Part shown: one piece after another, positions 14,810 through 32,209 of the stretch
How positions within the stretch are numbered: the first letter of the stretch is position 1
Layout: the number at the start of each line of letters is the position of its first letter
Assembly (NCBI GenBank): GCA_938028465.1
Contig: CALJAA010000122.1
Coordinates: forward strand, 1 to 56,143
Direction: 5' to 3'
Source of the DNA: an uncultured Granulosicoccaceae bacterium
GTDB taxonomy: Bacteria; Pseudomonadota; Gammaproteobacteria; Granulosicoccales; Granulosicoccaceae
Length of the DNA: 56,143 bases
Made by a program: the position numbers and the translations under genes
The notes under the pieces: generated by a model
The model's database searches: none
Told to the model about the DNA's origin: nothing
The model's input: only the letters and a program-made list of their open reading frames with translations

Positions 14810-14885
14810 CCAGACAATGATTCACGCTAACGCTCATACTCAGTACATCAGTGAGCATCAAAGCTCGAAACGGACACACGACAAA

Positions 14886-15686: not shown

Positions 15687-15698
15687 AATTAACGGCTA

Positions 15699-15712
15699 AC
15701 TAGCAGATGCTA
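15699..15712. other. Short hairpin between convergent genes
   Basis: CTAGCA-GA-TGCTAG is a 6-base inverted repeat between the stops of the DUF3108 gene and the convergent hypothetical gene. It has no T-run, so a role as terminator is only a guess. Confidence 0.3.
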
Positions 15713-15713
15713 G

Positions 15714-16547: not shown

Positions 16548-16660
16548 GGAGTGATTAGACCGCTATTGTCGTAAAAATACAACGGTAAAAAGCACCAATA
16601 TTGTAAAAATTAGCCAATTCTAATGATCCTCGGATCGCCCATAAAACAAGCCTTACTTAT

Positions 16661-17197
16661 ATGGTAGACGACAATTCGCCAAAATCCAGTGAAGATGACG
16701 ACTCACTGGCGCTCAGCAAGAGCCAACGCAAGCGTGATGCGCACGAAGTGCGAGATCTAGGTGGCGAACTGGCAGCCCTAGGCGCAAGCGAGCGCGCCCG
16801 TGTGCCGATTCCTGAAGACATCGTACGTGAGATAGACAAGCTCAACGCCTGCAAAGCCAACGGTGCCCGCAAGCGTCAGCTTGGGTTTCTGGCCAAACAG
16901 CTACGTAGGCACGATGTGCAGCCCATGCTCGATGCGCTAGAGGCGATTCGGCAGAACGCGCGAAGCCACACACTGCTTCACCATGCGGTAGAAGAATGGC
17001 GCGACAAGCTATTGGGCTTGAAAGAAATTGGCGCATCCGAAGCGCTGACTCAATTTTTGGTCGACTACCCGGATGCTGATCGCCAGCGCCTACGACAACT
17101 ACAACGCAAAGCAATTACTGAACGAGAAGCCGAACGTCCACCTGCCGCTGCCCGCGAGTTGTTTAAATTGGTTCGCGACAACGTTATACCCAGTTGA
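16661..17197 (+). CDS. darP: Ribosome biogenesis factor YjgA/DarP (DUF615)
   Basis: 178 residues, highly charged and helical, with the DUF615 pattern: SKSQRKRDAHEVRDLGGELAALG near the N-terminus and RQLRQLQRKA/AARELFKL near the end. In E. coli YjgA (DarP) binds late 50S precursors. It is followed by a lipoprotein gene whose ATG overlaps its stop by one base (TGATG). Confidence 0.92.
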   Translation: MVDDNSPKSSEDDDSLALSKSQRKRDAHEVRDLGGELAALGASERARVPIPEDIVREIDKLNACKANGARKRQLGFLAKQLRRHDVQPMLDALEAIRQNARSHTLLHHAVEEWRDKLLGLKEIGASEALTQFLVDYPDADRQRLRQLQRKAITEREAERPPAAARELFKLVRDNVIPS

Positions 17198-18174
17198 TGC
17201 GCTGCGGGGTTTATTGCTTGGCATTAGCCAGCCTACTCAGCTCATGCGCCGCCACAGCACCTCAAAGCCCTCCGGAGACTGAGCAATCTATACCAACACC
17301 TTCAACAGGAGTGGTCAAAAATAACAACAACGTTAACGACGCGAAAATTACTCACAATAAACTAGCTGAGATAAGCGGCATTACAGCTGCATCATCACCC
17401 AAGATTCGGTTCTGGGCGATCAACGATAGTGGTAACGACAGCGCGTTATTCGCCATTGGTAACAACGGCCAGCTACTAGGCCAGTTTTTATTGCCTGAAA
17501 AAAATCGCGATTGGGAATCACTCAGCCGAACACAGATTGGCGACAAAACGGTTTTGATCGTTGGTGAAACCGGCGATAACCTGCGACATCACAAGCAGTA
17601 CAAGCTGTACTTTGTGCCAGAACCAATGCTGACAAACAACTCCAAACAAGCCATTACTGCTTACCACACCATCCGTTATCAGTTTCCTGATGGCAACCAC
17701 AATGTCGAAGCAATGGCGGCAACCGGTAATGCGATTTTTCTGATAACCAAAGAACCTTTGCGCAAAGGTGAGCCCACGCCTGGCAAGCTATTTCGTTTAG
17801 ATATAACTAAAGGTCAAAGTGATTCAACCCAATTCGCCACCTACATAGGGCAAATGCAACCACGGCCCAGCTCAGTAACATCCAGGTTGGCTGCCTCTTT
17901 TGCAAACGTAGATTTGAATCAAGCAACAGCGCTAAGCTTCGCGCCCGACGGATCCGCCGCTTTTATGCTCACATATCGACAAGTAGTACGCTTTACTAAA
18001 CGCGCCAACCAGAGTTGGTCGGATGCACTACTGGGGCGAGGGGACGTTATTCATAGGCACGGTTTGCGACAAGCTGAAGCAATGACAATGGATAACGACG
18101 GTGTACTTTGGCTAACGTCGGAGAAACTACCAGCGCCGATTGTGGCAGTGCCTGCCTTTTCCAGCTTTGAGTAA
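17197..18174 (+). CDS. Hypothetical lipoprotein, beta-propeller-like
   Basis: 325 residues from ATG 17197; an immediately preceding in-frame TTG is less likely. The signal peptide ends in the lipobox LLSSC (Cys17), so it is probably a lipoprotein. The rest carries repeated blade-like segments (FWAINDSGNDSALFAIGNNGQLLG; VLIVGETGDN; GVLWLTSEKLPAPIVA), including a NDSGN...VGETGDN pattern seen in SdiA-regulated/esterase-like-of-phytase type propellers. The exact family is uncertain. It overlaps yjgA by one base and lies 130 bases upstream of the H-NOX gene. Confidence 0.7.
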   Translation: MRCGVYCLALASLLSSCAATAPQSPPETEQSIPTPSTGVVKNNNNVNDAKITHNKLAEISGITAASSPKIRFWAINDSGNDSALFAIGNNGQLLGQFLLPEKNRDWESLSRTQIGDKTVLIVGETGDNLRHHKQYKLYFVPEPMLTNNSKQAITAYHTIRYQFPDGNHNVEAMAATGNAIFLITKEPLRKGEPTPGKLFRLDITKGQSDSTQFATYIGQMQPRPSSVTSRLAASFANVDLNQATALSFAPDGSAAFMLTYRQVVRFTKRANQSWSDALLGRGDVIHRHGLRQAEAMTMDNDGVLWLTSEKLPAPIVAVPAFSSFE

Positions 18175-18304: not shown

Positions 18305-18841
18305 ATGAAAGGCGTAATATTTACATACCTCGCTGATATGGTCGAGGAACACTTTGGGCTAGACGCCTGGGATGCAATCCTGCAGCATGCGGGGCTTGAT
18401 GGTCTCTATGTATCATCTGAATCCTACGACGACGACCAATTGTTTCGCTTGGTACAGGCAGCGCACGAAGCGACGGGCATACCAAGCAATGACCTAATCC
18501 GAACATTTGGCAAATACTCTTTCGCTAAATTTCAACAATCACACCCTGATTTTTGCAAACCACAGTACACACTAAAAGAATTTTTACTAAGCGTGGATAA
18601 GGTAATTCACGTGGAAGTTAAAAAGCTACATCCAGACGCAATGCTACCTTCGTTTGAATACGAAGATGAAGCAGATAATGAGCTTACGATGATCTACAGC
18701 TCACAGCGCAAGCTATGTATGTTAGCGGAAGGTCTCATTACAGGTGCCGCTCAGTTTTACAAAACTGAATATGTTCTAAAACATGACAAATGCATGCACA
18801 ATGGCGACAAGCATTGCAAATTGCACCTCACCATGGTCTAA
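18305..18841 (+). CDS. H-NOX haem nitric oxide-binding sensor
   Basis: 178 residues from ATG 18305 (MKGVIFTYLADMV). This start is chosen because it puts the conserved residues at the canonical H-NOX numbers: proximal haem ligand His102, Pro115, and the haem-propionate motif Tyr131-x-Ser133-x-Arg135 (YSSQR). Position 140 is Leu, not the Tyr that allows oxygen binding in some H-NOX proteins, so NO selectivity is inferred. Cys138, Cys163 and Cys171 with nearby His residues resemble the structural zinc site of Shewanella H-NOX. H-NOX usually controls a histidine kinase or cyclic-di-GMP enzyme; here the next two genes are a PP2C phosphatase and an RsbW-like kinase, followed by exopolysaccharide genes. 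Confidence 0.93.
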   Translation: MKGVIFTYLADMVEEHFGLDAWDAILQHAGLDGLYVSSESYDDDQLFRLVQAAHEATGIPSNDLIRTFGKYSFAKFQQSHPDFCKPQYTLKEFLLSVDKVIHVEVKKLHPDAMLPSFEYEDEADNELTMIYSSQRKLCMLAEGLITGAAQFYKTEYVLKHDKCMHNGDKHCKLHLTMV

Positions 18842-18887
18842 CGATCATGACAAACTCTAAACTAACGATCGTGACAAACTCTAAACC
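18840..18887 (+). repeat. 24-bp tandem duplication at the phosphatase start
   Basis: Two head-to-tail copies of a 24-base unit, 18840-18863 and 18864-18887, differing at two positions, followed by a 9-base partial third copy. The first copy contains the H-NOX stop and the ATG of the phosphatase; the second contains an in-frame GTG at the equivalent place (18871). The coding result is a doubled (M/V)TNSK(L/P)TI octapeptide. Confidence 0.85.
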
Positions 18888-19863
18888 AACGATCGATGAG
18901 GCGTTAGACAAAGTAGCCGTTTTACAGCGTGCATACGAGCGAGAAAAAGCTCGGCGCCGAAATGCCGAAAAAATACTTGAAGATAAATCACGAACTTTGT
19001 ATTTATCACAAGAAAAGCTTAATGATGCTTCACAGCGGCTGCAAAATCAGAATGCTGTTATTACGGGGCTTTCGGATAACTACATCCGAGTTACACAAGA
19101 CCTAAGCTATGCTGCAAAGGTTCAAAACAGCTTACTACCTGGGTCTCTAGATTTATCTTCCATAGCAGCAGCCGGCCAATTCAAACCAGCACAGTTTATT
19201 GCAGGAGACGGTTACGACTACTTTCTCCTCAATAAGGACGTACTAGCATTTTATGTAATTGATGTTGCTGGCCATGGAATAGCAGCAGCAATGACATCAT
19301 TTGCAGTTCAGATACAACTCAACCCAAAGGCGGATGGGCTCTGTCAAAAACATTTTTCAATCGATAAGCCGCTGGATGATGTAGTTTCAGATATTATGAT
19401 TGATATTAATCATATGTTTTTTCACGAGCACCCAGACTCACAATACTTCACCATGGTGCTTGGATTAATCAAGCTTAAAACGGGCGAAGTGTCTTTCGCT
19501 CAAGCCGGCCACCCAGCTCCAATACTATGGCAATCAAGCACTGAACTAGCCATACCCCACGGCAAAGGTGGCACGCCGGTCGCGATGTTTGATACTCCGT
19601 CATTTGGCATCTATCAATGCCTGATGAAAAAAGGAGACCGGCTATTGGTGTATTCGGATGGTGTTACCGAATGCCGAAACCAACATGACGAGGAATTCGG
19701 CGAAAACAGATTAATTCGGGCTATTCGCCGTTCATCTACCCAGACCATTCAACAGTCGACGGAATCTATTACGGAAACTGTCACTACATGGAATGGTGGT
19801 AGAATATTTGAAGACGATCTATCGATTCTTCTATTAGAATACAAGAAGAACTCCGATGAATAA
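18847..19863 (+). CDS. SpoIIE/RsbU-type PP2C serine phosphatase
   Basis: 338 residues from ATG 18847, five bases after the H-NOX stop. Residues about 18-75 are charged and helical, a probable coiled coil that could receive the H-NOX signal. The PP2C core has every expected acidic metal ligand: Asp121 and Asp124 in GDGYDYF, Asp139 in IDVAGHG, Asp271 in YSDGVTE, and Asp323/324 in FEDDLSIL. It should therefore be active, most likely dephosphorylating a phosphoserine STAS protein. The candidate partner is the STAS protein at 27307. A possible alternative start is GTG 18871 in the tandem repeat. It overlaps the kinase gene by 8 bases. Confidence 0.9.
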   Translation: MTNSKLTIVTNSKPTIDEALDKVAVLQRAYEREKARRRNAEKILEDKSRTLYLSQEKLNDASQRLQNQNAVITGLSDNYIRVTQDLSYAAKVQNSLLPGSLDLSSIAAAGQFKPAQFIAGDGYDYFLLNKDVLAFYVIDVAGHGIAAAMTSFAVQIQLNPKADGLCQKHFSIDKPLDDVVSDIMIDINHMFFHEHPDSQYFTMVLGLIKLKTGEVSFAQAGHPAPILWQSSTELAIPHGKGGTPVAMFDTPSFGIYQCLMKKGDRLLVYSDGVTECRNQHDEEFGENRLIRAIRRSSTQTIQQSTESITETVTTWNGGRIFEDDLSILLLEYKKNSDE

Positions 19864-20329
19864 CATCCCCACTTCTTCTAATACCCCTCAGTATGTACGA
19901 AAATGCACATTTTCTGAACTTACCAATATTCAGATTGAAATTGAAAAGTTGATGATTGATTGGTATGAAGACGACATCAAGTTAAATTTTTCAACCCTCG
20001 CAATTATCGAAGTATTGGCCAATATTTTTGAACACGGTGCAGATTCACTTGAACAATCTACTCTTCATGTTGAGCTCTCTATTTCTCGACACAATGACTT
20101 AGTTACTGCACTCATTGAAGACAATACTTCACCAATACCTGATGAAGCAATATTAACCATGACAGGAACTAAAACCCACATGCCTGCTACCGATGTGAGT
20201 CAAGACAAACTGCCTGTTTCCGGCTGGGGATTGAACCTGGTGCAACATGCTACCAAGTCTGTAAATTATGAGCGCAAAGCGCAGTTAAACTATCTTGAAC
20301 TCATTTTTTGTTGCGGTACTACGTCATAA
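19856..20329 (+). CDS. RsbW-like serine kinase / anti-sigma-type ATPase
   Basis: 157 residues with a GHKL ATPase fold of the RsbW/SpoIIAB class. The N box is EVLANIFEHG (Glu52, Asn56, His60). The G1 box is EDNTSPIP, with Thr where Gly is usual after Asp-Asn, and the G2 box is SGWGLNLVQ (residues 122-130). Such kinases phosphorylate a conserved Ser of a STAS partner and can sequester a sigma factor or other target. It follows the phosphatase with an 8-base overlap, so the H-NOX, phosphatase and kinase genes form one operon. Its 3' end overlaps the convergent polysaccharide gene by 40 bases. Confidence 0.85.
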   Translation: MNNIPTSSNTPQYVRKCTFSELTNIQIEIEKLMIDWYEDDIKLNFSTLAIIEVLANIFEHGADSLEQSTLHVELSISRHNDLVTALIEDNTSPIPDEAILTMTGTKTHMPATDVSQDKLPVSGWGLNLVQHATKSVNYERKAQLNYLELIFCCGTTS

Positions 20330-21744
20330 TTAAGGCCAACTAGTTTTTTTAAATATCTGTAAAACAAATCAGATCGCTTGCATCCCGGCCTAGTGGCATC
20401 AGCCATTAGTATTTCATCAATTGAACTTTCCTCGTCCAGCTCAATTTGCGCAGGGCCAATCAAACCTACCGGGCACTCATCCCGCATAAACTGCCAGGAC
20501 TCCGTCCGGCCATCCAAATCTTCTGGCGCTAACACCGACACCCCAAACCAATCAATATTGCCGCGCGCAATTTCAAGCATTAATGGCAACTTTACCAAAG
20601 CCTGATATCGAGTTTTAATTTCAAAACTACTGAATTGACGATGCGATAAATTACTGTGCACAGCGTTACCTAAGTAACGAACACGCTTACACATACTTAA
20701 ACCGTGACCAAACGAAGCATCAACTAAAGCCACTAACCACAAGGGTAACGACAGCAACAGAACCATGAGAGCTGTTAGCCTGCCTATAAAGCTACCCACT
20801 TTTACTGAAAATACAGAACTCGACAATGAACCTAACAATCGATCATCTTCGAGCGTAATGGACGTTTCTTTGTCGACACGGATCAAAATATTACGCCATA
20901 CGATTGCGTTTTCTAGGTATAAGTGTTCGCCAACGAACGTATTATCCAAAATCAAACTATTCACAATGGTGGTATTTCTATCCACCACAACATTATCACC
21001 CAATACAACCGTGCCCTTGCAAACAACGTTGGATTCCAAGCGACATCTCTCTCCCGCAAACAGCTCTCCACCGTCTATGTTATCGGCCTTAATCTGACAA
21101 CCCGGCCCAGCGAATATTCCTGGGTGCTTTTGTGTGCCTCGTGTCAATACTCGTTCAGGCTTATCATGTGCAAGCCGTAAATTACAGGCATGATATTTTT
21201 TTAGTAACGAAACATCCTCACAATAATCCATGGCTAGGTTAACAAAAACAGACGCCTCGCTTGCGACTTGGTCTAGCGCCCTATTCTTTGGATCGATGTA
21301 GTGAACCCCAGTCTCTTTTCCTCCAAACATACCGCTGGACAGCCAGCTACCTTGTGACCTAAATTGCTCAATAGCATCGCCTATATCAAAAGCTCTTAAA
21401 ATTCCCGTATCCAAAACTAAACAAGGAACCTGGTTATCTCGATCTCTTTTGGACACTACATCAGTGAAACTAGAATTACCTCGGGTGGTGCGGTAGCTAA
21501 CATCCACACCCCACCGTTCTCCACCACCAGCAAACTGTCGTACTTGCCCTGAAAATCCATTGACTAGTAATGTTACATTGCTCACCGAGAGTGGTATCAG
21601 AGATTCTAAAACATGCTCTAGCATGGGCTTACCACAAATAGGTAGTAACGCTGAACAGGTATATTGAGTTAATGGCAGAAGACCTTCGCCGCGATCATCA
21701 GCTATGATGATGATGTCCATTTTATTACTAATTCCATTGTCCAT
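20290..21744 (-). CDS. Nucleotidyltransferase-like / left-handed beta-helix membrane protein of the polysaccharide operon
   Basis: 484 residues. Residues 9-200 have the fold of NDP-sugar pyrophosphorylases, but the catalytic signature is degraded: IIADDRGEGLLPLT replaces the glycine-rich GGxGxRLxPLT, and the usual Pro-Lys before LLP is Cys-Ser. About 205-300 is a left-handed beta-helix of hexapeptides (FVGEHLYLENAIVW). A membrane helix follows at about 322-345, then a tail with RDECPVGLIGPAQIEL that recalls the end of bacterial sugar transferases. It may be a non-catalytic scaffold or regulator of the adjoining phosphoglycosyltransferase. Its ATG overlaps the upstream stop by one base (TAATG), making it the last gene of the leftward operon. 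Confidence 0.72.
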   Translation of the reverse strand: MDNGISNKMDIIIIADDRGEGLLPLTQYTCSALLPICGKPMLEHVLESLIPLSVSNVTLLVNGFSGQVRQFAGGGERWGVDVSYRTTRGNSSFTDVVSKRDRDNQVPCLVLDTGILRAFDIGDAIEQFRSQGSWLSSGMFGGKETGVHYIDPKNRALDQVASEASVFVNLAMDYCEDVSLLKKYHACNLRLAHDKPERVLTRGTQKHPGIFAGPGCQIKADNIDGGELFAGERCRLESNVVCKGTVVLGDNVVVDRNTTIVNSLILDNTFVGEHLYLENAIVWRNILIRVDKETSITLEDDRLLGSLSSSVFSVKVGSFIGRLTALMVLLLSLPLWLVALVDASFGHGLSMCKRVRYLGNAVHSNLSHRQFSSFEIKTRYQALVKLPLMLEIARGNIDWFGVSVLAPEDLDGRTESWQFMRDECPVGLIGPAQIELDEESSIDEILMADATRPGCKRSDLFYRYLKKLVGLNYDVVPQQKMSSR

Positions 21745-23660
21745 TAATAGGCTCCTCGCCCAGAGAAAACAGCAGGCACTGTTTTCAATAGAATCAATAC
21801 ATCTTGAATAAAGCCACGCGACTCAAGATAATTAATATCTAAATCAACTTGCTCTTCGAAGGTCGTATCTGATCGCCCAGATACCTGCCACAAGCCTGTG
21901 ATACCTGGTATCACCTCTAGACGACGACGATCACGCCCAGTGTAAAGTTCTACTTCACTCGGCACCGGTGGCCTCGGGCCTACCAACGACATATCCCCTC
22001 TTATGACGTTAATCAACTGCGGGAGTTCGTCTATTGAAAAACGTCGTATGAATTTTCCTACACGAGTGATGCGGGGGTCTGATTTCATTTTGAAGGTGAC
22101 GCCACCGGCAACCTCATTTGATTCGGACAAATTACTTTTGATACTTTCAGCATCAGTGCGCATAGATCTAAACTTAAGCATACTGAACGATTCACCGAAT
22201 CGACCAACACGATTCTGCCGAAAAAGTACAGGGCCTTTAGATTCAAGTTTTATTAATAAAGCAACTATCAGAAGCACGGGCGACAATCCAACCAAGGCAA
22301 CGGTGGACCCAAGTAAATCTATCAAACGCTTTCCGATTTTGGTTAATTGGAGCTTCAACAACCATAGGTATTGCTTGCGCTTATATCGTTTGTTTGGTTT
22401 TGAATCTGTTTTGTATGGATCCTTGAAACGCCGATAGTTAGCGCACTTACTATCATTGCTGACTTGCCTGTTTACTCTATAAAGGAACAATGGATTGCCC
22501 ACCAGATATCGACGCCATAATCGTCCGGGCTCCTGCTTTAAGCGCCATACCCACTCCATACCAATATCCTGAACCCAACGCGGTGAGCGAGATATTCTTT
22601 GAGTATGAAAATCAAATAAGCCGCCCACCCCAATTTGAACAGCTGGATTTAGTTTTTCGTGATGAGTGCTTATCCAAAATTCTTGCAATGGTGCGCCGAA
22701 CGCCACAAGCAAGATATCCGCACCGGACATGTTTATTTGGTTGATGACATCATCTGTATCCTCCTCGGCAAAATAACCATAATGTGATCCAACAACATTT
22801 AATCCAGGATTAGCGGCTTGCAAACTAAGGGCAGCCTCTAGCGCCACCCCTGGCCTACCACCTAACAGGTAAATAGAAAAATCATTCTTTACACTTTGTT
22901 GGCATATTTTAGGTAATAGATCGGTTCCATTAACGTTGCCTAGTAGCTCTACTCCCAACATTTGAGCGCCTATTTGCAAACCAATACCATCTGCAAAAAC
23001 GCGTGACATGTTTGATAAAGCATCTTTATAACGTTCGTTTTTTACAGCAATGTTCAAGCAATCCGCATTAACAAATGCTAGGCGGCACTTATCCCCCTCC
23101 AAGGCATGATCAACTACCAGAGAAGTAGCGGAATCAAGCGTTAAATTATCGATAGGCACCCCCAGCATCTTAAATCGATCAGGTCGATAGTAGCTTTGCT
23201 TGGGAACCATGATATTGATCAGCACATATCGGCTTAGAATGCTCAACTTATCCATCACCGATAAGTCAGTTAATTTCTGGCTTTCATATTGCGTTCCACT
23301 ACGCTTACGCAATTTATCTAGATTAATTAAACACGGCACTTCTGCGTGTTCTGGAGTTTTTTGGGTATCACCACTACGCTGCATTGCAATAGCTTCTTCT
23401 ACTAGCAGCCCTTCACCAACAAATACTAAATCTCCCTTCGCAATATTAAATAGAAACCCCAATTTTCTACCACGAGCAAAACTTGAAAATCTCAATAGAG
23501 TAAATTTTTTACGACTGCTATCTATCGCACTCTTTTCAAATACCGAGCCGGTTCTATACAAGCCCAAAGCTGCTCTTATTATTAAAACGGGCGTAAGTAA
23601 CAGAATACTTATCACCGCTACGATTTTGTCAAACCATTGAATATGATTAAAGTGCTTCAT
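21744..23660 (-). CDS. WecG/TagA glycosyltransferase fused to polyprenyl phosphoglycosyltransferase
   Basis: 638 residues in three parts. Residues 1-90 have a membrane helix and the remnant of a sugar-transferase domain (FTLLRFSSF, GDLVFVGEG) without its catalytic section. Residues about 165-395 are a WecG/TagA/CpsF (GT26) glycosyltransferase with MLGVPIDNLTLDSA, NADCLN, FADGIGL and the GAPLQEFW motif. Residues about 440-638 are a complete bacterial sugar transferase (WbaP/WcaJ type): a membrane helix, LKFRSMRTDA, the SIDELPQLINVIRGDMSLVG core and RPG-like PGITGLWQV. The C-terminal part should load the first sugar-phosphate on undecaprenyl phosphate and the middle part add the second sugar. 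It overlaps the sulfotransferase gene by 4 bases. Confidence 0.88.
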   Translation of the reverse strand: MKHFNHIQWFDKIVAVISILLLTPVLIIRAALGLYRTGSVFEKSAIDSSRKKFTLLRFSSFARGRKLGFLFNIAKGDLVFVGEGLLVEEAIAMQRSGDTQKTPEHAEVPCLINLDKLRKRSGTQYESQKLTDLSVMDKLSILSRYVLINIMVPKQSYYRPDRFKMLGVPIDNLTLDSATSLVVDHALEGDKCRLAFVNADCLNIAVKNERYKDALSNMSRVFADGIGLQIGAQMLGVELLGNVNGTDLLPKICQQSVKNDFSIYLLGGRPGVALEAALSLQAANPGLNVVGSHYGYFAEEDTDDVINQINMSGADILLVAFGAPLQEFWISTHHEKLNPAVQIGVGGLFDFHTQRISRSPRWVQDIGMEWVWRLKQEPGRLWRRYLVGNPLFLYRVNRQVSNDSKCANYRRFKDPYKTDSKPNKRYKRKQYLWLLKLQLTKIGKRLIDLLGSTVALVGLSPVLLIVALLIKLESKGPVLFRQNRVGRFGESFSMLKFRSMRTDAESIKSNLSESNEVAGGVTFKMKSDPRITRVGKFIRRFSIDELPQLINVIRGDMSLVGPRPPVPSEVELYTGRDRRRLEVIPGITGLWQVSGRSDTTFEEQVDLDINYLESRGFIQDVLILLKTVPAVFSGRGAY

Positions 23661-24508
23661 AAATGAGCTCTCATTAATTCTGTATCTGGCTTCGAGACAG
23701 GTTTGTCAGAATATCCATATGCTTTAGTATGTTTTGACAATGCGACTGAAATTATCAATTTTTGAAGCCAAGACAAATTACCCTTCTTCTTTCTTGCAAA
23801 GTTTTCAGGCTCCACAACATCTACACCAGAACGGCGTGCAAATTCACCGTATTTACGTAAACCATGTTTTTCGCTTACCATCCGCTGAAGTACGTCATCG
23901 TCGACAGAGCTATTTAAATAATCCAGTACTGTTTTCAGGGTGCTCTTAGGCGATGCTTTTAATTCTTCGTATCGCACAACACATAGATTCGGATCCTCTA
24001 GCAACAATTGATCTGTTCCTGGAACTGAAAAAAAGTATCGATAAGTTCTTACCGCAGAAAAAACCGAACTAGGTGCCCAGTTCCTACCCCAGCTCCTTGC
24101 AGCGCTAATAAGTGATTCAATAACATCTTCAGGTTTGCGCAACAATACAATGATGCGCGCCTCGGGAAATACCTTTCGTATATCCTCGATACAACGTATG
24201 TGATCTGGCGTTTTATCCAGAAATAGTTTATTAGCGTGAAACTCGGGCACATTGGAATAGACACGCTGAGCAGTATCTCGAATGGTATCGATGAATTCTT
24301 CTTCTGTGAGATACGCCGGCAAACCAATACCACCGCGACCATCGTCAAATTCCAACAACTCATTCCAGGTTTTCATCATCGGCTGCAGAAAATGATTAAA
24401 CAGATGCGATTCCTGTGCGGTACCGATATCTGGATGATTAGCTAACATGCCTTGCAACCAAGTGGTACCACTGCGCGGTGGACCAACTAAAAACACCAAC
24501 TTATTCAT
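23657..24508 (-). CDS. Sulfotransferase of the polysaccharide operon
   Basis: 283 residues. The 5'-phosphosulfate loop of PAPS-dependent sulfotransferases is GPPRSGTTWL (9-18), and the 3'-phosphate motif is RIIVLLRKPEDVIESLISAARS (about 118-139). It has no signal peptide, so it acts in the cytoplasm, presumably on a lipid-linked or nucleotide-linked glycan before export. Its place between a GT2 and the phosphoglycosyltransferase, with 4-base overlaps on both sides, suggests the exported polysaccharide is sulfated. No PAPS synthesis genes (cysD, cysN, cysC) are in the window. Confidence 0.88.
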   Translation of the reverse strand: MNKLVFLVGPPRSGTTWLQGMLANHPDIGTAQESHLFNHFLQPMMKTWNELLEFDDGRGGIGLPAYLTEEEFIDTIRDTAQRVYSNVPEFHANKLFLDKTPDHIRCIEDIRKVFPEARIIVLLRKPEDVIESLISAARSWGRNWAPSSVFSAVRTYRYFFSVPGTDQLLLEDPNLCVVRYEELKASPKSTLKTVLDYLNSSVDDDVLQRMVSEKHGLRKYGEFARRSGVDVVEPENFARKKKGNLSWLQKLIISVALSKHTKAYGYSDKPVSKPDTELMRAHL

Positions 24509-25581
24509 CGCAATACCTCAGCAGAATCAACAGGCTTCACCTTCCTCACGATGTTTTGGCCCATCCTATGAGCTGCAATTCGTGCCCTTTGTGCCACACC
24601 AGTGACAGCATTCGCTACAGGCATTAATTTGTTAAAAGTACTGCTAGGTACAACTCTCTGAATGTAGGCGGCCGATCCAGTGATGATTGTTCTAGATGGC
24701 TCGTTCCATAATATTGATGAATCGCATGACAATGATTTATTGAACATCTCCACGGCCATTTTTCCATCCCCTAATCGGATCGCCTGCCGGGCTAGATAGC
24801 GCAGCTGATAAGCTCTAGCTCGTTTGCCATACTGTTCGATTAGCTCGGGCGCATAGCCGTGGGTTTTCTCAATCACTTTCTCCCAACTTGCTAATTGCTT
24901 AGGAATATTGGCGGACAGGCCGCCACCGTTCAGCCTGTACAAGGTCAGCGCCTCTGATAAACCCTCAATGCGCCAGTTAGTTTTTATACGAATCCGAATC
25001 CAACATTCAATATCCTCAGATTGCCTGAACGCCTCGTCGAAATAACTAAAGTAATCTGTATTAAACTTATCCGCAGTAAACTTAATATCTTCGAAAACTG
25101 CTTTGCGCACAACGGGAGCAGAACCATTGCCAATGGGGTTTCGGCAAAGCAAGTGTTCAGCAGGCGCATAATCCAAACGTGGCATTTGCACAGTAGCGAG
25201 TCTTTTGCCTTCTTCATCAATAAATGCTGAGCGACTAAAACTAACGCCAATGTCTTGATTCGAATCCAAATGCGCGACGTGCGCCATAAGCTTAGCTGGT
25301 TCCCAAGCATCGTCTGAATCTAGAAATGCCAGATATTCACCCGTTGCACAACGTATACCCGTATTTCTGGCACCCGCTAAACCTTTGTTCTTTTCATGCT
25401 GAATAATTTGAATTCTTGGATCATCAAACAGCCGGCAAATTTCTACACTCTTATCAGGAGAACAGTCATCAATGATAAGTAACTCAAAGTCAGTAAAAGA
25501 CTGCGCTAAAACAGAACTGACAGCTGCTTCTACGTACTTCTCTACACCATAAATTGGCATTATCACTGAAACTTTAGTCAT
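24505..25581 (-). CDS. Family 2 glycosyltransferase
   Basis: 358 residues. The GT-A domain occupies about 1-240: VSVIMPIYGVEKYV at the start, IDDCSPD (37-43), and the metal-binding DSDD (88-91) in AFLDSDDAWEP. The C-terminal 100 residues are helical and variable. It should transfer a sugar from an NDP donor to the growing repeat unit on the inner face of the cytoplasmic membrane. ATGA-type overlaps with the flippase upstream and the sulfotransferase downstream place it firmly in the operon. Donor and linkage cannot be read from sequence. Confidence 0.92.
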   Translation of the reverse strand: MTKVSVIMPIYGVEKYVEAAVSSVLAQSFTDFELLIIDDCSPDKSVEICRLFDDPRIQIIQHEKNKGLAGARNTGIRCATGEYLAFLDSDDAWEPAKLMAHVAHLDSNQDIGVSFSRSAFIDEEGKRLATVQMPRLDYAPAEHLLCRNPIGNGSAPVVRKAVFEDIKFTADKFNTDYFSYFDEAFRQSEDIECWIRIRIKTNWRIEGLSEALTLYRLNGGGLSANIPKQLASWEKVIEKTHGYAPELIEQYGKRARAYQLRYLARQAIRLGDGKMAVEMFNKSLSCDSSILWNEPSRTIITGSAAYIQRVVPSSTFNKLMPVANAVTGVAQRARIAAHRMGQNIVRKVKPVDSAEVLR

Positions 25582-26852
25582 CCTATCAGTCCTCTTGATT
25601 TAGCAAACACGGTTTGCTGATTTTTTGATTGTTGCTTATTAACAATAAAAACATAATGTAGTGGTGCAGCAAGGTATTGCGATAGCAGTACAGCTACGAC
25701 CACACCGATCAATCCCCATTGCACTCCAATAAATATGGCGATGATAAAAATTGCGCTATAAGAGAGATGCCATTGCAAATCTGCTAATGGCCGATCTTGG
25801 GCGCGTAGGTATTGGCTACCAGCTTCGGTTACTAACAGTGGAATACCCGCCATACATAAAAGCGATACTAGAACAGCTGCATCCCGCTCAACCCATTGTT
25901 GGCCAAACAAGATAGGCACATAAATATCTGCCATAAAAGCCTGCAAGCTCAGTAGCGGAATCATCAATAACAACATGTACGACAAACCCTGTCGAAAGCG
26001 CTTCTGTAGTTCTTCACTTTGATGTTTAGCAGCACACAGATAGGGGTAAAAAGCATTGTTTAGAGATAGGATAAAGCCACGAGACAAACCAAGCCCTGCG
26101 TTATACGCAAAGTAATAAATACCTAATGCTTCCATTCCTAAAAAGAAACCTATCAACACATAATCAATGTTGTGGCGTATAACGCCCAACACCTCCACAC
26201 CAACAACCCGGCTATTAAAGGAGAGGTGATCCGATAATCGAGACAAGGTGAACCGCTTGGGTGCGATATATGTATTTGCGCGTCTATGGGCCCTTATCCA
26301 GATGGGAACAACAAGTATTTTCGGCAGAACCAGAGACCAAACACCAAAACCTAACAACACCATAGCTATGGTTAACGCCGCATCTACCACCGTTTGCTGT
26401 ATCTCTGTAGTAGCAATTAACGCGATCTTCTCTTGGCGCAGGTTTAAGGCAGAATGCACTTGCGCTACTGGCAATAATAGATAAGTAAAACCCAATACGG
26501 AAACAAGGTAAAAAATTGTAACGTCATCGTAAACCCACGATAAACCGAACCCCACTAAGCACTGAATTAAGAATACGGCAGCACCGACCAACCAATTAAC
26601 GTAATACGCGGTATCGCTCAGCGATATTAATTCGCACTCTTCCGCCCTAATTATCTTGCTATTGGTAGCATTACGGGAAAATACATGGGAAATTTCGTTT
26701 ACTGCCAATGCGATGGCAGCAACACCTAACAATTCAGGGGCTATCAAACGCGCAACAACAATCGTAGATAGTATTCTCGCTAGTCGCATAGCAAGCTGTG
26801 AGCCTCCTATCCAAGCAGCGGATTTACCTAAAGATTGACTAGCATCATTCAT
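25578..26852 (-). CDS. Polysaccharide flippase (Wzx/MATE-like)
   Basis: 424 residues from ATG 26852 (MNDASQSLGKSAAWIGG); a GTG-free extension to 26897 adds 15 atypical residues and is not used. About twelve membrane helices and the N-terminal ARILSTIVVARLIAPELLGVAAIA segment are typical of the polysaccharide transporter family (Wzx, RfbX). It should flip lipid-linked repeat units to the periplasmic side, ready for polymerisation by the ligase/polymerase encoded at 30896. It is the first gene of the leftward polysaccharide operon. Confidence 0.88.
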   Translation of the reverse strand: MNDASQSLGKSAAWIGGSQLAMRLARILSTIVVARLIAPELLGVAAIALAVNEISHVFSRNATNSKIIRAEECELISLSDTAYYVNWLVGAAVFLIQCLVGFGLSWVYDDVTIFYLVSVLGFTYLLLPVAQVHSALNLRQEKIALIATTEIQQTVVDAALTIAMVLLGFGVWSLVLPKILVVPIWIRAHRRANTYIAPKRFTLSRLSDHLSFNSRVVGVEVLGVIRHNIDYVLIGFFLGMEALGIYYFAYNAGLGLSRGFILSLNNAFYPYLCAAKHQSEELQKRFRQGLSYMLLLMIPLLSLQAFMADIYVPILFGQQWVERDAAVLVSLLCMAGIPLLVTEAGSQYLRAQDRPLADLQWHLSYSAIFIIAIFIGVQWGLIGVVVAVLLSQYLAAPLHYVFIVNKQQSKNQQTVFAKSRGLIG

Positions 26853-27306
26853 AGCGATCAATGTCACTTTAATAAATATACGGATGGAGAGGTGCATACT
26901 GCACTTACAACAGGCGCAAATCGAGGAGGTGTGAAAGTATTAGTAAAATACTAAACAGGGAGAATATTACGACTGGTTACACACCCAGCGAGAATAACAA
27001 TGTTGCGGATACTCTTCGAACAATCCAATTAACGGCCGATGTCCACGTTACATTTAATTGCAAATTCACATATCTCACCAGTACTCAGTATTCGCTATGT
27101 ACGTCGCATTAAAACGCAATGTTACATGTGATACAAACCCGCAAACTAAAGAGCTGCTCATTGCCAGTCGATAGTGCTCTTGGATGAAACGCAAGAAGTT
27201 CATTCATTATCAATTCTTAGGTAGTCATGTAACTGTTAAATAACCCTCTCAGTCTACAAAAACATCGCCAAGAAAAATCCACAGAGGGAACGGGAGTATC
27301 ACTGTA
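26853..27306. promoter_or_regulatory. Divergent control region of the two polysaccharide operons
   Basis: 454 bases without a gene between the flippase (left) and the STAS gene (right). Direct observations: inverted repeats GTGCA-TAC-TGCAC (26892-26904) and TAGTA-AAA-TACTA (26941-26953); and the heptamer GTTACAT at 27047-27053 and 27121-27127, with its complement ATGTAAC at 27227-27233. A GGGAG ribosome-binding site lies ten bases before the STAS ATG. I see no sigma-54 promoter and no sigma-70 pair I would defend. The region presumably holds both operon promoters. Confidence 0.55.
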
Positions 27307-27645
27307 ATGATCACACTAAGCCATTCTATTGAACAAGGCGTCGACATCGTCGCATTTCACGGCCGCCTAAGTGCCGCTGACGCTGGCAGCGTATCAGACG
27401 AACTGCATCGCATTCTCGAAGGCGGTAGTAAGAATATTTCAATCGATATGGCCGAACTAGACTTTGTCGATTCAAGCGGGCTGTCAGTACTAATATCCAC
27501 CCTAAAGTTTGCACGCAACGAAGGTGGTGATATGGTTCTAATAAATGTAAATCCTCGAATTATGGCCTTACTAGAGCTAACTCGTTTAAACGAAATCATA
27601 GATATCTTTGATGATCAAGAAGCGCTAATAGCCGCTTTTAGCTAG
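27307..27645 (+). CDS. STAS-domain anti-sigma-factor antagonist (SypA/SpoIIAA-like)
   Basis: 112 residues, a single STAS domain. The phosphorylation motif is FVDSSGLSVL with Ser57 as the likely target (the Ser just before Gly, as in SpoIIAA). This is the natural substrate type for the RsbW-like kinase and PP2C phosphatase encoded at 18847-20329. It is the first gene of the rightward polysaccharide operon, as sypA is in the Vibrio fischeri syp locus, where the phosphorylation state of the STAS protein decides biofilm formation. The downstream target is not evident, since no sigma factor is in the window. Confidence 0.93.
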   Translation: MITLSHSIEQGVDIVAFHGRLSAADAGSVSDELHRILEGGSKNISIDMAELDFVDSSGLSVLISTLKFARNEGGDMVLINVNPRIMALLELTRLNEIIDIFDDQEALIAAFS

Positions 27646-27677: not shown

Positions 27678-29429
27678 ATGTTTAGTGCACCTAACTCTCT
27701 CGCCATGATAGCGTTGGCTATACTTTGTGCCGCCTTAACTGGCTGTCGCGCCATGGACACGCATGATATCGACGGCTCTCATTACCAAAATGAACGCCGT
27801 GCATTCTATGCACCTGAAAAGGAAGCGGATGTAAAAGCTATCAGTCATGCCTATCGTTGGGTCTCAGGCAACCTTCAGGGGAGTTGCACTGAAACAGATG
27901 GCGCTACTCTTCAAAACGCGCTTCCGTCATTAAAAAGTATATCTGACGAACAACATTATCCAGTTGACACCATTCATATTGAATCAGCTGGACTGTTTTT
28001 TACTAATTCAACTACCTTGACAGCAGAAGGCACAACAATACTTGCACAAGTAAAACAAAGGTTAGAAGGATACCCTGAACTCTTCCATCTCACTATCAAT
28101 GGACATACAGACAACAGGGGCTCATTCACTAGCAACGACGCTTTATCAAAAAGACGTGCATATGCAATATCAACTGCGCTACAAAGCATCGTACCGAGCA
28201 ACAAAATTCGTATTCAAGCATCAGGCGAACATAAACCTGTAGAAATTAATGTCAATGCAACTAAGCGCGCCAAAAATAGACGTGTAAGCATTACCGCAGT
28301 AGTCGGCACACAAGGCAGCACGCAACAATCACCCGCGACTGCAATCAGTACTCTCTGCCATAAAACCCAAAACCAGCAACCAACCACAACGCTAACGTCA
28401 TCTCGACTCAAACTACAAGATCGTGTCGATCAATCATTGCTACCCGCGTATTCCGATAGGCCCCCATTATCAGCAGGCGACAGGATCAGAATCGCAATCC
28501 CCGAAGGTGAGGATCTAAGTGGTGTCTACGAAGTGGGGTTAGGCGGGCAATTAGAAGTCCCTTTTATCGGTCTAATCTCAGCGCAAGGCATTGACACTCG
28601 AGAACTGGAAAAAACAATTCACGACCGATTAATTGAAGAACAAATATTCCGCCCTGGCATGCTACGAGTGAGCACAACGGTACAGGAGTGGGCACCGGTG
28701 GACGTGTTGGTATCAGGCGCTACCTTCGACCCTGGTCGAGTAACCATAAATCGGCAAAAAGCGGATTATCGTACTTTCAAGCAAAGCCAACTCTCTGGCG
28801 ACTTCGCGAAAGACAGGTTACTCAGTGCAGCGCTCTACTCCGCTGGTGGTATCAGACCCGACGCAGACTTACAGCACGTGCAATTAATTCGAAATGGTGA
28901 AGTGAAAATCATCGATCTTTACGGATTATTTGACGGTACGCTAACAAAAGATATCGCACTAGCTGCAGGTGACCAAATCGTCGTCCCCAGCACCGGCTAC
29001 TTTCAAGCAAAGCTCGTAAGACGTACCCAGATTACGCCACCGGGCATTCGAATATTCATATCAAATCTTAGTATACCGGCCTTGAACAATTCACAATCTG
29101 CCGTCAACAGTAGCTCGACCAGCATGCCATATGGCACTCGGTTCTTACAGGGCTTGTTATCAGGCAATTGTATCGGCGGAACCCAGCTTACTAACGCATC
29201 ACGGCGCGCTGTATTGATTAGCACTAACCCGTTAACGGGCCGCACAGAAGTCATTGAGCGATCAATACAACAGTTAGTTAGCGACCCAGAACGCGATGAA
29301 ATCAACCCCTTCCTTATGCCGAACGACGGCATTGCATGCTATGACTCTGGCGTAACCAACTTCAGAGATGTGACGCGGACATTCGGTGAATTTCTATCAC
29401 CTCTTCTGGATTTGAAGAGCTTGTACTAA
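27678..29429 (+). CDS. OmpA-domain / Wza-type polysaccharide export fusion lipoprotein
   Basis: 583 residues. A lipobox LTGC ends at Cys23. Residues about 100-208 are an OmpA-type peptidoglycan-binding domain (NGHTDNRGS at 141-149; NRRVSI at 200-205). Residues about 255-460 are a polysaccharide export domain with SLBB-like repeats: LSAGDRIRIAIPE, YEVGLGGQLEVPFIG, and AAGDQIVVPSTGYF. The C-terminal ~110 residues are not recognised. The protein should form the outer-membrane exit for the polysaccharide and anchor it to the cell wall. In the syp locus these two functions are separate proteins (SypB, SypC). It starts 32 bases after the STAS gene. Confidence 0.85.
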   Translation: MFSAPNSLAMIALAILCAALTGCRAMDTHDIDGSHYQNERRAFYAPEKEADVKAISHAYRWVSGNLQGSCTETDGATLQNALPSLKSISDEQHYPVDTIHIESAGLFFTNSTTLTAEGTTILAQVKQRLEGYPELFHLTINGHTDNRGSFTSNDALSKRRAYAISTALQSIVPSNKIRIQASGEHKPVEINVNATKRAKNRRVSITAVVGTQGSTQQSPATAISTLCHKTQNQQPTTTLTSSRLKLQDRVDQSLLPAYSDRPPLSAGDRIRIAIPEGEDLSGVYEVGLGGQLEVPFIGLISAQGIDTRELEKTIHDRLIEEQIFRPGMLRVSTTVQEWAPVDVLVSGATFDPGRVTINRQKADYRTFKQSQLSGDFAKDRLLSAALYSAGGIRPDADLQHVQLIRNGEVKIIDLYGLFDGTLTKDIALAAGDQIVVPSTGYFQAKLVRRTQITPPGIRIFISNLSIPALNNSQSAVNSSSTSMPYGTRFLQGLLSGNCIGGTQLTNASRRAVLISTNPLTGRTEVIERSIQQLVSDPERDEINPFLMPNDGIACYDSGVTNFRDVTRTFGEFLSPLLDLKSLY

Positions 29430-29432
29430 ACC

Positions 29433-30941
29433 ATGAGGAATCAAGCAAAACAGTTTATTTACAACGGTGAGGAATTGGATGTTGATCTCGCTGAAGATAT
29501 ACCGACACCTGAGACGGAATCGATAAATGATTCAACTAATAAAGCGACTCCTCTGCCTGACGACATAGAAAAGCAGCGGCCTACCATCTGGGACCGGTTA
29601 GGCTTATCTCGTAAAAAGCGATATTGTTTAGCTGCATTTTTTAATCTAGCCATCATATGGGCCAGTGCAGTCTCGTTTGTTATTTTCACACCAGATCGCT
29701 ATATCAGTAAGTTTACGCTGCTGATCCCTGGGGCTGGTGCGGGATCGAGCGTCAATCTTGATGATCTAGGGCAGGCAACTACGTCAGTAAATTCAGCCTA
29801 TTCAAGCTCCAAAGTTGACCCCAAAACAAACTACAAAGCCATCGCCATGAGCCCCGTTGTTATCGATCTAGCAGCCAAGCGCTTAGGCATAACCCGCGAA
29901 AGCTTTGGCAAACCTAAAGTCAAACTGATAGATCAAACCACCCTATTAGAAATATCGCTATCAGCTACGGAAAGCGAAGCAGCTTTCACCAAGTCAGCCG
30001 AATTTCTCGCAGCACTCGAATCGACACTATCTCAGCTTCGCAGCGAGGAGCTTAGCACTCGGCGCAAAGCGAACGAGCGAGTGCTGTCAGTTTACCGGGA
30101 TAACGTCAATCAAGCACAATCAGCCGTGCTCGCATTTCAACGCGAATCCACCATCGTCTCACCCCAACAGTTTGAGGATTTAGTTCTCAATGTCGAAACG
30201 ATAAAGCAGCGCGGCGCTGAATCTGAAGTTAAATTTCAATCAATCAATACTAGCCTTACAGACCTACAAGCCTCGCTGGATATTGATCCACAACAAGCAG
30301 CGCATGCATTAAAACTACAGAACGATTCCGTGTTTGGTTCATTACTTATAAAAGTAGCCGAAACACATGCTGAGTTAGTTGAAAAAGAAGCGGTCTGGGG
30401 GCGAAAACATCCCAAAGTGCTTCACGCACGAGCGCGTGTTAACTCTTCAAGGCAAGCCCTATTGAATCGAGCCAAAAGCCTAACGAATATCGATAGCCTT
30501 AATGCATTGGACAACCTTTACATCTCGGATGAGGGCGGCAGAAGCGAGCTATTTCAAACAGTGATCAAACTAACTGCCGACAAATCTGCTGCCGCATCAG
30601 AGATTGAGTCTTACAACACGCAACTGGAAGAGCTTGAAAGTCGGATGCATATAAATGCTGGCCTCGCAGCGACTTTGCAAGACTTAGAACGAACTCATCA
30701 AGTGGCCACTGCTATCTATGTTTCCGCAGCTGCCAAAACTGATTTGGGAAACTCGGACATCTTTGCCTCCTACCCAATGACGCAAATGCTAATGGCGCCA
30801 ACTAAACCCAACGGGCCAGAGAAATTCACTAAACCCGTTGCCCTGGCAGGTGCTGCCATCGCATCCCTTCTCATTTGTCTTGCTCTATTGATTTCATGGA
30901 AACGCAGCGTATTACTCCAGAAACTACAGAAGAGAAGCTAA
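29433..30941 (+). CDS. Wzz/GumC-like polysaccharide chain-length (co-polymerase) protein
   Basis: 502 residues. Two membrane helices, at about 65-87 and 475-495, bracket a large periplasmic part with long coiled coils (about 200-250 and 390-430) as in Wzz, GumC and KpsE proteins. The C-terminal PNGPEKFTKPVAL before the second helix resembles the family's Pro-rich motif. No tyrosine-kinase domain follows. It should set chain length and link the inner membrane to the OmpA-Wza exit. It starts 3 bases after the previous stop, and its end overlaps the next gene by 46 bases. Confidence 0.85.
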   Translation: MRNQAKQFIYNGEELDVDLAEDIPTPETESINDSTNKATPLPDDIEKQRPTIWDRLGLSRKKRYCLAAFFNLAIIWASAVSFVIFTPDRYISKFTLLIPGAGAGSSVNLDDLGQATTSVNSAYSSSKVDPKTNYKAIAMSPVVIDLAAKRLGITRESFGKPKVKLIDQTTLLEISLSATESEAAFTKSAEFLAALESTLSQLRSEELSTRRKANERVLSVYRDNVNQAQSAVLAFQRESTIVSPQQFEDLVLNVETIKQRGAESEVKFQSINTSLTDLQASLDIDPQQAAHALKLQNDSVFGSLLIKVAETHAELVEKEAVWGRKHPKVLHARARVNSSRQALLNRAKSLTNIDSLNALDNLYISDEGGRSELFQTVIKLTADKSAAASEIESYNTQLEELESRMHINAGLAATLQDLERTHQVATAIYVSAAAKTDLGNSDIFASYPMTQMLMAPTKPNGPEKFTKPVALAGAAIASLLICLALLISWKRSVLLQKLQKRS

Positions 30942-32209
30942 TTTGGTACGCGATGATAGGAACCTACGGTTTCTACTTCATAGGTGCCTTATATTTGATT
31001 GTGCCTGTTATGGCGTGGGTTTTATTGTTCATGGGCCTCTGGCGATGGCTTGGCCCAGTAAAATCCTCAAATAAAAATCAGATACCCAATCTACCGATAT
31101 CAGTGATGATTTGGTTTTTAGGCATGTCATTCATGCTACTTGCACTATGGATAGGCCATGCCAATCATAGCCTTGGGCTAGGCGCGACGATTAAATCAAC
31201 CATCGGCTGGGCAAAAGGTTGGGCCTTACTTGCAATATTTCCTTTCATCGGCTGCCTTTCTATACGCCCCGAGTTAATATATCGAGCAGCATGCATCGTG
31301 TGCTTACACACTTTGTTATTACTGCCCGTTTTTATCGGGGCCTATGCACTAGGTCTTCCACAAAATCTTTGGGTATCACCGTTTAAATTATTGGGCGGGC
31401 CAGGCCCAGAATTTTTTATGCTCAACCTTTATGAATTGGAACCGGGTACAGGAGCACCACGGTGGAGATTTTTTACACCGTGGGCACCGGCCGCTGGGTT
31501 TGTCGCAAATCTATACTTTCTTTTTGCACTTCAGGAGAAGGATATTCGCTGGCGAACGATTGGAATAATTGGTAGTGTCGTCATCGTATTAATGTCCAAA
31601 TCTCGCCTAGGCTTAATTAGCCTGGGCAGTGTATGGGCCGTTACCTGGTTTTTAGTTAATTTTGGGCGTCCGTTTGTATTGTACGGTATAGGCATAGCAA
31701 CCTTTTTACTTAGCCTCATTGCAATCCCGCTTGTGGCCTTCGCTGAGCAACTCGTCGATACGTTTACCCAAGCGCGGGTCGATTCTTCACGAGTACGTTC
31801 AGCACTAGCCCGTATTGCAGTTGATCGTTGGGCCAGAGAAGCGCCAGTATGGGGTCATGGTGTGGTAGAACGCGGGCCACACATGGTTGAGTACATGCCC
31901 ATTGGTTCTCATCATACTTGGTTCGGATTGCTATTTGTAAAAGGCATAGTCGGGTTCATGTCTCTAGCGATACCCATGTTGATCAGCTTTGTGGCGCTGT
32001 GGCGTAATGCTTTCGCCACTGGCTCCGCAGGCGGTGCTGCAAAAACAGGCTTGTCGGTTATTTTGGTTTTGTTTTTATATACTTTTGGCGAAAATTTAGA
32101 AATTCTTCCCTATTTGATTTGGCCAGGATTGATATTTATTGGTCTGGGTGTCTCTATGCCCATCACATCAACTCATGAAAATCAGGCTGACCAGCTCAAG
32201 GATGCTTAA
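30896..32209 (+). CDS. O-antigen ligase/polymerase-like membrane protein (Wzy/WaaL family)
   Basis: 437 residues from ATG 30896 (METQRITPE); the frame is open slightly further to 30875. About ten membrane helices. A large periplasmic loop in the second half contains RVDSSRVRSALARIAVDRWAREAPVWGHGV and a GSHHTWFGLL segment, the Arg- and His-bearing pattern of O-antigen ligase/polymerase family proteins (PF04932 type). It probably polymerises the repeat units. Last gene of the rightward operon; it overlaps the convergent CopD-like gene by 14 bases. Confidence 0.82.
   Translation: METQRITPETTEEKLIWYAMIGTYGFYFIGALYLIVPVMAWVLLFMGLWRWLGPVKSSNKNQIPNLPISVMIWFLGMSFMLLALWIGHANHSLGLGATIKSTIGWAKGWALLAIFPFIGCLSIRPELIYRAACIVCLHTLLLLPVFIGAYALGLPQNLWVSPFKLLGGPGPEFFMLNLYELEPGTGAPRWRFFTPWAPAAGFVANLYFLFALQEKDIRWRTIGIIGSVVIVLMSKSRLGLISLGSVWAVTWFLVNFGRPFVLYGIGIATFLLSLIAIPLVAFAEQLVDTFTQARVDSSRVRSALARIAVDRWAREAPVWGHGVVERGPHMVEYMPIGSHHTWFGLLFVKGIVGFMSLAIPMLISFVALWRNAFATGSAGGAAKTGLSVILVLFLYTFGENLEILPYLIWPGLIFIGLGVSMPITSTHENQADQLKDA

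Follow-up and report, generated by a model that had tools for sequence, protein, structure and literature searches.

In a 56,143-nucleotide stretch of DNA from an uncultured Granulosicoccaceae bacterium (contig CALJAA010000122.1, hereafter the window), we describe genes for an H-NOX sensor, a SpoIIE-type PP2C phosphatase, an RsbW-like kinase and a STAS protein, which probably form a switch of the SypE/SypA kind, with the H-NOX protein as input, controlling polysaccharide output. The N-terminal helix of the phosphatase, common to H-NOX-linked histidine kinases, would act as a portable plug: by a narrow balance, we lean towards the view that one H-NOX lineage, keeping this helix, exchanged its histidine kinase partners for a serine phosphatase, and that the resulting unit replaced receiver or receiver-like phosphatases at two different polysaccharide partner switches, where two-component control would have given way to direct control of serine phosphorylation by a gas or redox signal. 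Comparison of the sequences brings out the anatomy, the conserved linkage, the shared helix and the alternation of PP2C types. The features of the switch are the following (Pfam families and E-values in brackets; loci and genomes bear L and G labels).

18305..18841 (alternative start 18290), plus strand: H-NOX (HNOB) sensor (HNOB, 4.9e-44)
18847..19863 (putative start), plus strand: SpoIIE-type PP2C phosphatase with an N-terminal H-NOX-partner helix (SpoIIE, 2.1e-38)
18919..19047, plus strand: H-NOX-partner adaptor segment of 43 aa, common to H-NOX-linked histidine kinases
19856..20329, plus strand: RsbW/SpoIIAB-type serine kinase (HATPase_c_2, 3.3e-10)
27307..27645, plus strand: STAS switch protein, SpoIIAA/RsbV-like (STAS, 7.9e-20)

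The H-NOX, PP2C and kinase genes form a tight operon (the cassette): the likeliest PP2C start codon, ATG 18847, lies 5 bp past the H-NOX stop, in an open frame spanning 18790-19863 of the plus strand, and the kinase gene overlaps the PP2C gene by 8 bp. A 24-nt direct repeat (two copies, 96%; window 18838-18885) lies across the PP2C start and yields two in-frame start codons, ATG 18847 and GTG 18871. At its 3' end, the kinase gene overlaps by 40 bp, tail-to-tail, a nucleotidyltransferase-like gene of the minus strand (20290-21744), so that the cassette and the first polysaccharide operon are convergent; co-transcription of the cassette with the polysaccharide genes of the window is ruled out by the opposite strands. 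The STAS gene heads a plus-strand export operon. A previous sequence-only reading of the window had correctly placed the four genes, with intact haem ligands in H-NOX, an intact PP2C directly after it and a DSSG-bearing STAS protein at the head of the second polysaccharide operon, but its statement that the cassette runs into a polysaccharide operon has to be abandoned.

The window PP2C is of the SpoIIE/RsbU type, with a SpoIIE domain and intact acidic residues of the metal site; G120-D121, D139, G142-H143-G144, D271-G272 and D323-D324 are invariant among 11 aligned proteins, and Pfam gave no Response_reg match in it. In its AlphaFold2 model (predicted local distance difference test score, pLDDT, of 80.4), a single helix (residues 16-95) leads into the PP2C fold, the helix being of lower confidence (block means of 54-77 over residues 21-90). 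The best hydrophobic period of this helix is 3.49, which was equalled in 41 of 2000 shuffles. The top Foldseek match of the model is the Pseudomonas aeruginosa RssB phosphatase (3f79, 4e-17); Rv1364c, a single chain combining RsbU and RsbW domains, is also among the fold matches. The N-terminal helix corresponds to a segment of about 43 residues that is borne by histidine kinases adjoining H-NOX.

The helix was searched alone in 48 Granulosicoccaceae genomes (the order-level set is the same 48) and in a class-wide sample of 369 genomes, HNOB being present in 25 of the former and 26 of the latter. Within the family it was matched in 22 genomes, once in each, always on the same strand and 72-212 bp 3' of the H-NOX domain, and it was absent from the 23 genomes without H-NOX as well as from three (G024, G026 and G034) whose only H-NOX is distant (23-26% identity). 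Because 11 of the 22 matched sequences already formed part of the query, the weight rests on the other 11 and on the absence elsewhere. Class-wide, the search gave 18 matches in 17 genomes, 14 of which, including all 13 below E 1e-6, lie 75-1216 bp 3' of H-NOX. Among the named H-NOX loci (L080-L159, the best 80 of 92), the helix lies at most two genes from H-NOX in 76, and near it in 58 of 62 once the genomes that supplied the profile are set aside. The helix-bearing partner is a histidine kinase in 63 of the 80 loci, a PP2C in 11 (ten titled Granulosicoccaceae, one Granulosicoccus) and a gene not matched as a kinase in 2. Of the 31 H-NOX places of the class sample besides the window, 29 were covered with about 1.5 kb on each side, and the PP2C profile gave no match in any of these 29.

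The kinase is a small stand-alone HATPase_c_2 protein with an E/N box, a G box and a SpoIIAB-like fold, as in the RsbW/SpoIIAB group. Its E52, N56, D89 and G123-W-G125 are invariant in eight aligned proteins; in a ninth (L259), the first glycine is replaced by Asn. The AlphaFold2 model (pLDDT 80.7) is closest in Foldseek to SpoIIAB (1l0o, 3.6e-6) and 1til, RsbW of the RsbV/RsbW complex 6m37 coming fifth. Similarly, the STAS protein is of the SpoIIAA/RsbV kind, stand-alone and with a serine at the phosphosite position (profile matches to RsbV 6m36_B, 3.5e-13, and SpoIIAA 1th8_B, 1.6e-12). Within its motif D55-S56-S57-G58, the expected phosphosite is Ser56 (codon 27472-27474), given that SypA of Vibrio fischeri is phosphorylated at Ser56 (PMC10120452; articles cited by PMC number are used here from excerpts) and that position 57 is Cys in L096; Ser57, which had been named beforehand, was rejected on these grounds.

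In the source genome, which is 88.76% complete, we found no further phosphatase of the SpoIIE type, no second small kinase like RsbW and no second stand-alone SpoIIAA-like STAS protein. SpoIIE was matched there in the window PP2C and in two near-identical proteins of 277 aa, PP2C_2 being the better fit for one of the latter; the genes of these two PPM-type phosphatases lie on two contigs, with different flanks in the stretches examined (L161 and L162). The 12 HATPase_c_2 matches comprise the window kinase, ten in open frames of 442-1641 aa, judged on length alone except for L163, and L173, a fragment located where a contig begins, for which HATPase_c is the better fit. Besides the window protein, STAS was matched in L176, a cut frame of 159 aa with Pfam STAS only, which we read as the tail of a SulP transporter, and in L177 (STAS_2), read as MlaB from its neighbouring genes.

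The named relatives of the window are mostly Granulosicoccaceae metagenome-assembled genomes (MAGs). In five genomes (window, L100, L080, L108 and L096; type A), the H-NOX, PP2C and kinase genes lie beside the nucleotidyltransferase-like gene. The STAS gene stands beyond the minus-strand operon in the window, L100, L108 and L096, cassette and STAS bracketing the same genes, and on a separate contig (L264) in the L080 genome (G042). The cassette is co-directional with the polysaccharide operon only in L096 (one of the five type A loci), where it is inverted. In L108 (10486-12009, also L047), PP2C and RsbW-like kinase form one open reading frame (ORF) of 507 aa. The same spot in L259 (G002, 84% complete) holds a 404-aa PP2C, whose N-terminus is weakly receiver-like (1.1e-4), and a kinase; an HNOB search found no H-NOX in this 84% complete genome. 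A second gene row (type B; L267-L270) is composed of a receiver-PP2C, a STAS protein, a kinase, a glycosyltransferase of family 2 (GT2) and a DUF3131 protein, with receiver-domain E-values of 2e-15, 1.7e-20, 3.8e-21 and 1.5e-25. In L032, L033, L042 and L048, an H-NOX-PP2C pair faces a STAS-kinase-GT2-DUF3131 row (L035 ends too early), the GT2 and DUF3131 proteins sharing respectively 66-68% and 55-57% identity with their counterparts in L267-L270; among these four genomes, G018 is without further SpoIIE match, and G011, G014 and G019 have one each (E 6e-27 to 2e-30). The neighbourhood on which the sequence-only reading had made its proposal depend is thus kept, as the full set in five genomes and, in four further genomes, as an H-NOX-PP2C pair adjoining a second STAS-kinase locus. 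With phosphatase, kinase and STAS genes conserved together, partner switching through phosphorylation-controlled binding is predicted.

Kinase and STAS also vary in a correlated way at a likely interface. In the known system, Asp20/Asp22 of SypA are predicted to contact Arg19/Arg22 of SypE (PMC10120452). At the kinase helix-1 position that an alignment, as we read it, equates with the SypE arginines, Arg is found in all eight type B proteins and Glu or Asp in all six of type A (L259 included); at the STAS position of SypA Asp22, the residue is Asp in 8/8 of type B, Ser or Gly in 6/6 of type A and Val in four switch-less cases. Since one genome (G040) carries both a type A and a type B locus (L047 and L267), this difference could insulate the two switches.

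A tree of 41 H-NOX proteins was built from the window and 40 of the 80 named loci, all rows without a PP2C partner being labelled kinase, though L110 and L112 show no called kinase. The 12 PP2C-partnered proteins form one clade (support 82/77; recovered in 79% of 200 bootstrap trees), which stands beside kinase-partnered H-NOXs of the same family. The partner label changes once on this tree, and none of 500 shuffles was as low; several origins of the PP2C partnership were considered and set aside, the H-NOX tree needing only one.

Regarding the signal, H102 (codon 18608-18610), Y131, S133 and R135, which we take to be the proximal histidine and the YxSxR motif of the haem site, are invariant across 14 aligned H-NOXs, and the window protein, an HNOB-domain protein with these residues in place, is predicted to bind haem and nitric oxide (NO). 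Leu140 occupies the position of Tyr140, which is found in O2-binding H-NOX, and this argues against O2 as ligand. Solved relatives are 2kii (8e-36) and 4u99 (2e-35). NO is kept by default as the presumed signal. The wiring could also serve another one, with the Cys3-His zinc site of H-NOX reporting oxidants, either on its own or in addition to NO, which we regard as possible although rather doubtful. Indeed, C138, H160, C163 and C171 are invariant across the same 14 proteins and match in numbering the named zinc ligands of the Caulobacter H-NOX, which inhibits its kinase upon oxidation of this site and not upon NO (PMC12329717). However, the haem residues are just as invariant, 4u99/4u9b, among the nearest solved proteins, bear names of NO-binding sensors, and the Caulobacter article itself regards the NO-inactive state as exceptional within related systems (PMC12329717).

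We infer the binding, dimer control, phosphorylation, target, order of events and sign as follows. The H-NOX protein (free, NO-bound or zinc-site-oxidised) would dock onto the N-terminal helix of PP2C, which enters the phosphatase domain and probably pairs with the helix of a second PP2C copy; the H-NOX state would set this dimer and hence phosphatase activity, in the way RsbT acts on the RsbU linker. The RsbW-like kinase would add phosphate to Ser56 of STAS and PP2C would take it off, STAS then permitting or blocking polysaccharide production as SypA does for Vibrio fischeri biofilm. As NO-bound H-NOX inhibits kinase autophosphorylation (PMC8738867), the most likely sign, to be given little weight, is that activated H-NOX would inhibit PP2C, so that STAS would stay phosphorylated and polysaccharide would fall. 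As for its origin, an H-NOX lineage working with histidine kinases may have gained as partner a PP2C with this same helix, and the pair now occupies the place where some relatives hold other PP2C types.

Several observations weigh against this interpretation. At 88.76% completeness, a partner could be missing from the source genome. Four of the 18 class-wide helix matches lie away from H-NOX (one of two in G393, plus G246, G117 and G176), all with E above 1e-6, and 4 of the 80 named loci are without the helix beside H-NOX (a kinase lacking it in two, neither in two), of which L115 is truncated where its contig ends, and L110 (G043) is a gene-calling miss, the helix having been found there by direct search. 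The receiver match in the L259 PP2C is below its cut-off. The H-NOX clade has moderate support and its outgroup rooting is not clean, and the PP2C tree, from which three distant rows were dropped, gives no resolution on a single origin of the H-NOX-type PP2Cs, its branching neither supporting nor excluding descent of the catalytic domain from local receiver-PP2Cs. The interface pattern amounts to two clades and few events, and single changes of SypA Asp20/Asp22 left SypA under SypE (PMC10120452). Two H-NOX-PP2C pairs (L037 and L038; type C) have no kinase or STAS nearby, their genomes holding elsewhere a receiver-PP2C-STAS-kinase locus (G028: L268) or a SpoIIE/STAS pair (G033:C51). Finally, L260-L263 retain a related locus headed by STAS, in which neither a kinase nor a PP2C was present within the stretches examined (best SpoIIE match in these genomes, 2.8e-8), so that STAS may act without the switch. 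Loss of the phosphosite in such genomes was considered and rejected: Asp-Ser is kept in all four (DSSG, DSRG, DSRG and DSKG), which leaves this test neutral.

The type C pairs and the switch-less STAS loci, together with the cassette lying on the strand opposite to the neighbouring polysaccharide genes, would fit a system in which H-NOX and PP2C are one unit while PP2C and kinase target another STAS/anti-sigma pathway, the polysaccharide genes being mere linkage. We consider this unlikely, since the own-genome search revealed no second stand-alone SpoIIAA-like STAS, the same genes are bracketed by cassette and STAS in four type A loci, the interface residues of kinase and STAS differ together between loci and a similar association recurs at a second polysaccharide locus. 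It is to the same degree improbable that the module controls a sigma factor or some other regulator of transcription whose targets include the polysaccharide genes: the kinase and STAS do resemble SpoIIAB/RsbW and SpoIIAA/RsbV, but Pfam gave no sigma-factor domain among the scanned genes of the cassette and polysaccharide block, and the closest described analogue, SypE/SypA, works below transcription (PMC10120452). A very improbable reading, although the H-NOX partners named in excerpts of a 2022 review are histidine kinases or diguanylate cyclase/phosphodiesterase (DGC/PDE) enzymes (PMC8738867), is that H-NOX acts elsewhere, for instance on a histidine kinase in trans, beside an incidental PP2C neighbour; this PP2C bears the helix of H-NOX-linked kinases, which is single and beside H-NOX in each of the 22 helix-bearing family genomes. 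In the preferred H-NOX-gated switch, whose predicted wiring comparison supports well, the predicted H-NOX-to-PP2C step gains support because the PP2C carries this shared helix, and the predicted PP2C/kinase-to-STAS step because of the lack of alternatives found in the genome, the linkage and the correlated interface residues. The NO-gated switch of the sequence-only reading thus stands in part, for these two steps, and falls for the operon run-in and Ser57.

The other genes of the locus are the following.

20290..21744, minus strand: sugar nucleotidyltransferase-like protein (NTP_transferase, 2.3e-4, at cut-off; LbH-type matches below cut-off)
21744..23660, minus strand: fusion of a WecG/TagA glycosyltransferase and a bacterial sugar transferase (Glyco_tran_WecG, 1.3e-56; Bac_transf, 2.2e-73)
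23657..24508, minus strand: sulfotransferase (Sulfotransfer_3, 3.9e-30)
24505..25581, minus strand: glycosyltransferase family 2 (Pfam, 2.4e-36)
25578..26897, minus strand: polysaccharide flippase, Wzx-like (Polysacc_synt_3, 4.2e-41)
27678..29429, plus strand: OmpA domain fused to polysaccharide export domains (OmpA, 3.7e-14; Poly_export, 1.1e-8; SLBB_2, 6.9e-7)
29433..30941, plus strand: ORF with no Pfam family, matched in L096, L259, L260 and L262
30875..32209, plus strand: hydrophobic ORF with no Pfam family, matched in L259, L260 and L262; last gene of the shared block

The minus-strand operon thus reads, from 26897 to 20290, flippase, GT2, sulfotransferase, fused WecG/sugar transferase and nucleotidyltransferase-like protein; with a sulfotransferase gene in the locus, the regulated product may be sulfated. 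The fused ORF (638 aa) is covered at 98-100% in L100, L080, L108, L096 and L259. Behind STAS, the export operon continues with the OmpA-export fusion and the two genes without Pfam match, for which our guesses are a Wzc-like chain-length protein (29433..30941, from gene position) and a Wzy-like polymerase (30875..32209, from position and hydrophobicity). The right end of the block, 32209, is based on L259, L260 and L262, other relatives ending earlier; only L260 and L262 extend past that point, and both lack matches to the window genes that follow. On the cassette side, window genes at 14204-18174 are without match in L100, L108, L096 and L259 (L080 is too short to tell). An Rfam scan of the window gave no match. 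In a Woeseiaceae MAG (L107, 7294-10546), H-NOX lies near a similar polysaccharide locus, with a helix-bearing hybrid histidine kinase on the opposite strand; a search of that genome, which had no positive control there, did not find a STAS protein of the window type, and with this kinase nearby the locus was rejected as a further example of the switch. In a Bugula-associated Chromatiales genome (L050, 2498-3063, also L114), the H-NOX frame is stop-interrupted and a helix-bearing kinase gene lies behind it.

Among known systems, the one described here is most like SypE/SypA of Vibrio fischeri, in which an RsbW-like kinase and a PP2C act on the Ser56 of a small STAS protein of a polysaccharide locus, and a receiver domain, also present in SypE, is found in second-locus PP2Cs of relatives. 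When unphosphorylated, SypA promotes biofilm formation at a level below transcription (PMC10120452). Unlike SypE, which combines kinase, receiver and PP2C in one protein, the window has separate genes (one ORF in L108), and the input would be an H-NOX protein rather than a receiver domain fed by a histidine kinase. As in the H-NOX/histidine kinase and H-NOX/DGC-PDE pairs, the partner gene lies directly 3' of H-NOX, and the helix of PP2C is that of the histidine-kinase partners; in contrast, the partner is a SpoIIE PP2C without HisKA/HATPase_c kinase, and the predicted output is serine phosphorylation of STAS instead of a His-Asp relay or cyclic-di-GMP. Most studied H-NOX proteins work with histidine kinase/response regulator systems or DGC/PDE enzymes, and the neighbour families in a figure legend of this 2022 review do not include SpoIIE (PMC8738867). 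In the excerpts consulted from openly licensed literature, subscription papers being outside our scope, we found no description of an H-NOX-PP2C link. If true, it would add another effector class to the histidine kinases and cyclic-di-GMP enzymes of H-NOX signalling, together with a partner switch that H-NOX places under gas or redox control.

A helical linker preceding the phosphatase domain is also present in the Bacillus RsbU/RsbT/RsbV/RsbW system and in P. aeruginosa RssB, the best structural match of the window PP2C. RsbT activates RsbU by driving its linkers into a coiled coil, and inputs have been proposed to be exchangeable among phosphatases, kinases and cyclases, the exchange of sensory inputs through helical linkers being left open (PMC12143880); a text search of this article gave no mention of H-NOX, heme or nitric oxide. 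By analogy, the H-NOX helix would represent one input exchanged in this manner. As one sensor family and one helix occur with both kinases and phosphatases within Granulosicoccaceae, these bacteria would offer a natural experiment on how freely sensory inputs swap among phosphatases, histidine kinases and cyclases via helical linkers. Unlike in RsbU, the activator proposed here is H-NOX. The sensor of the Vibrio stressosome is reportedly a haem RsbR, whereas that of the window is an H-NOX and not a stressosome sensor. The two systems are nevertheless alike in that both link a Gram-negative partner switch to a gas sensor acting upstream, the Vibrio stressosome being O2-sensing (PMC4976288).

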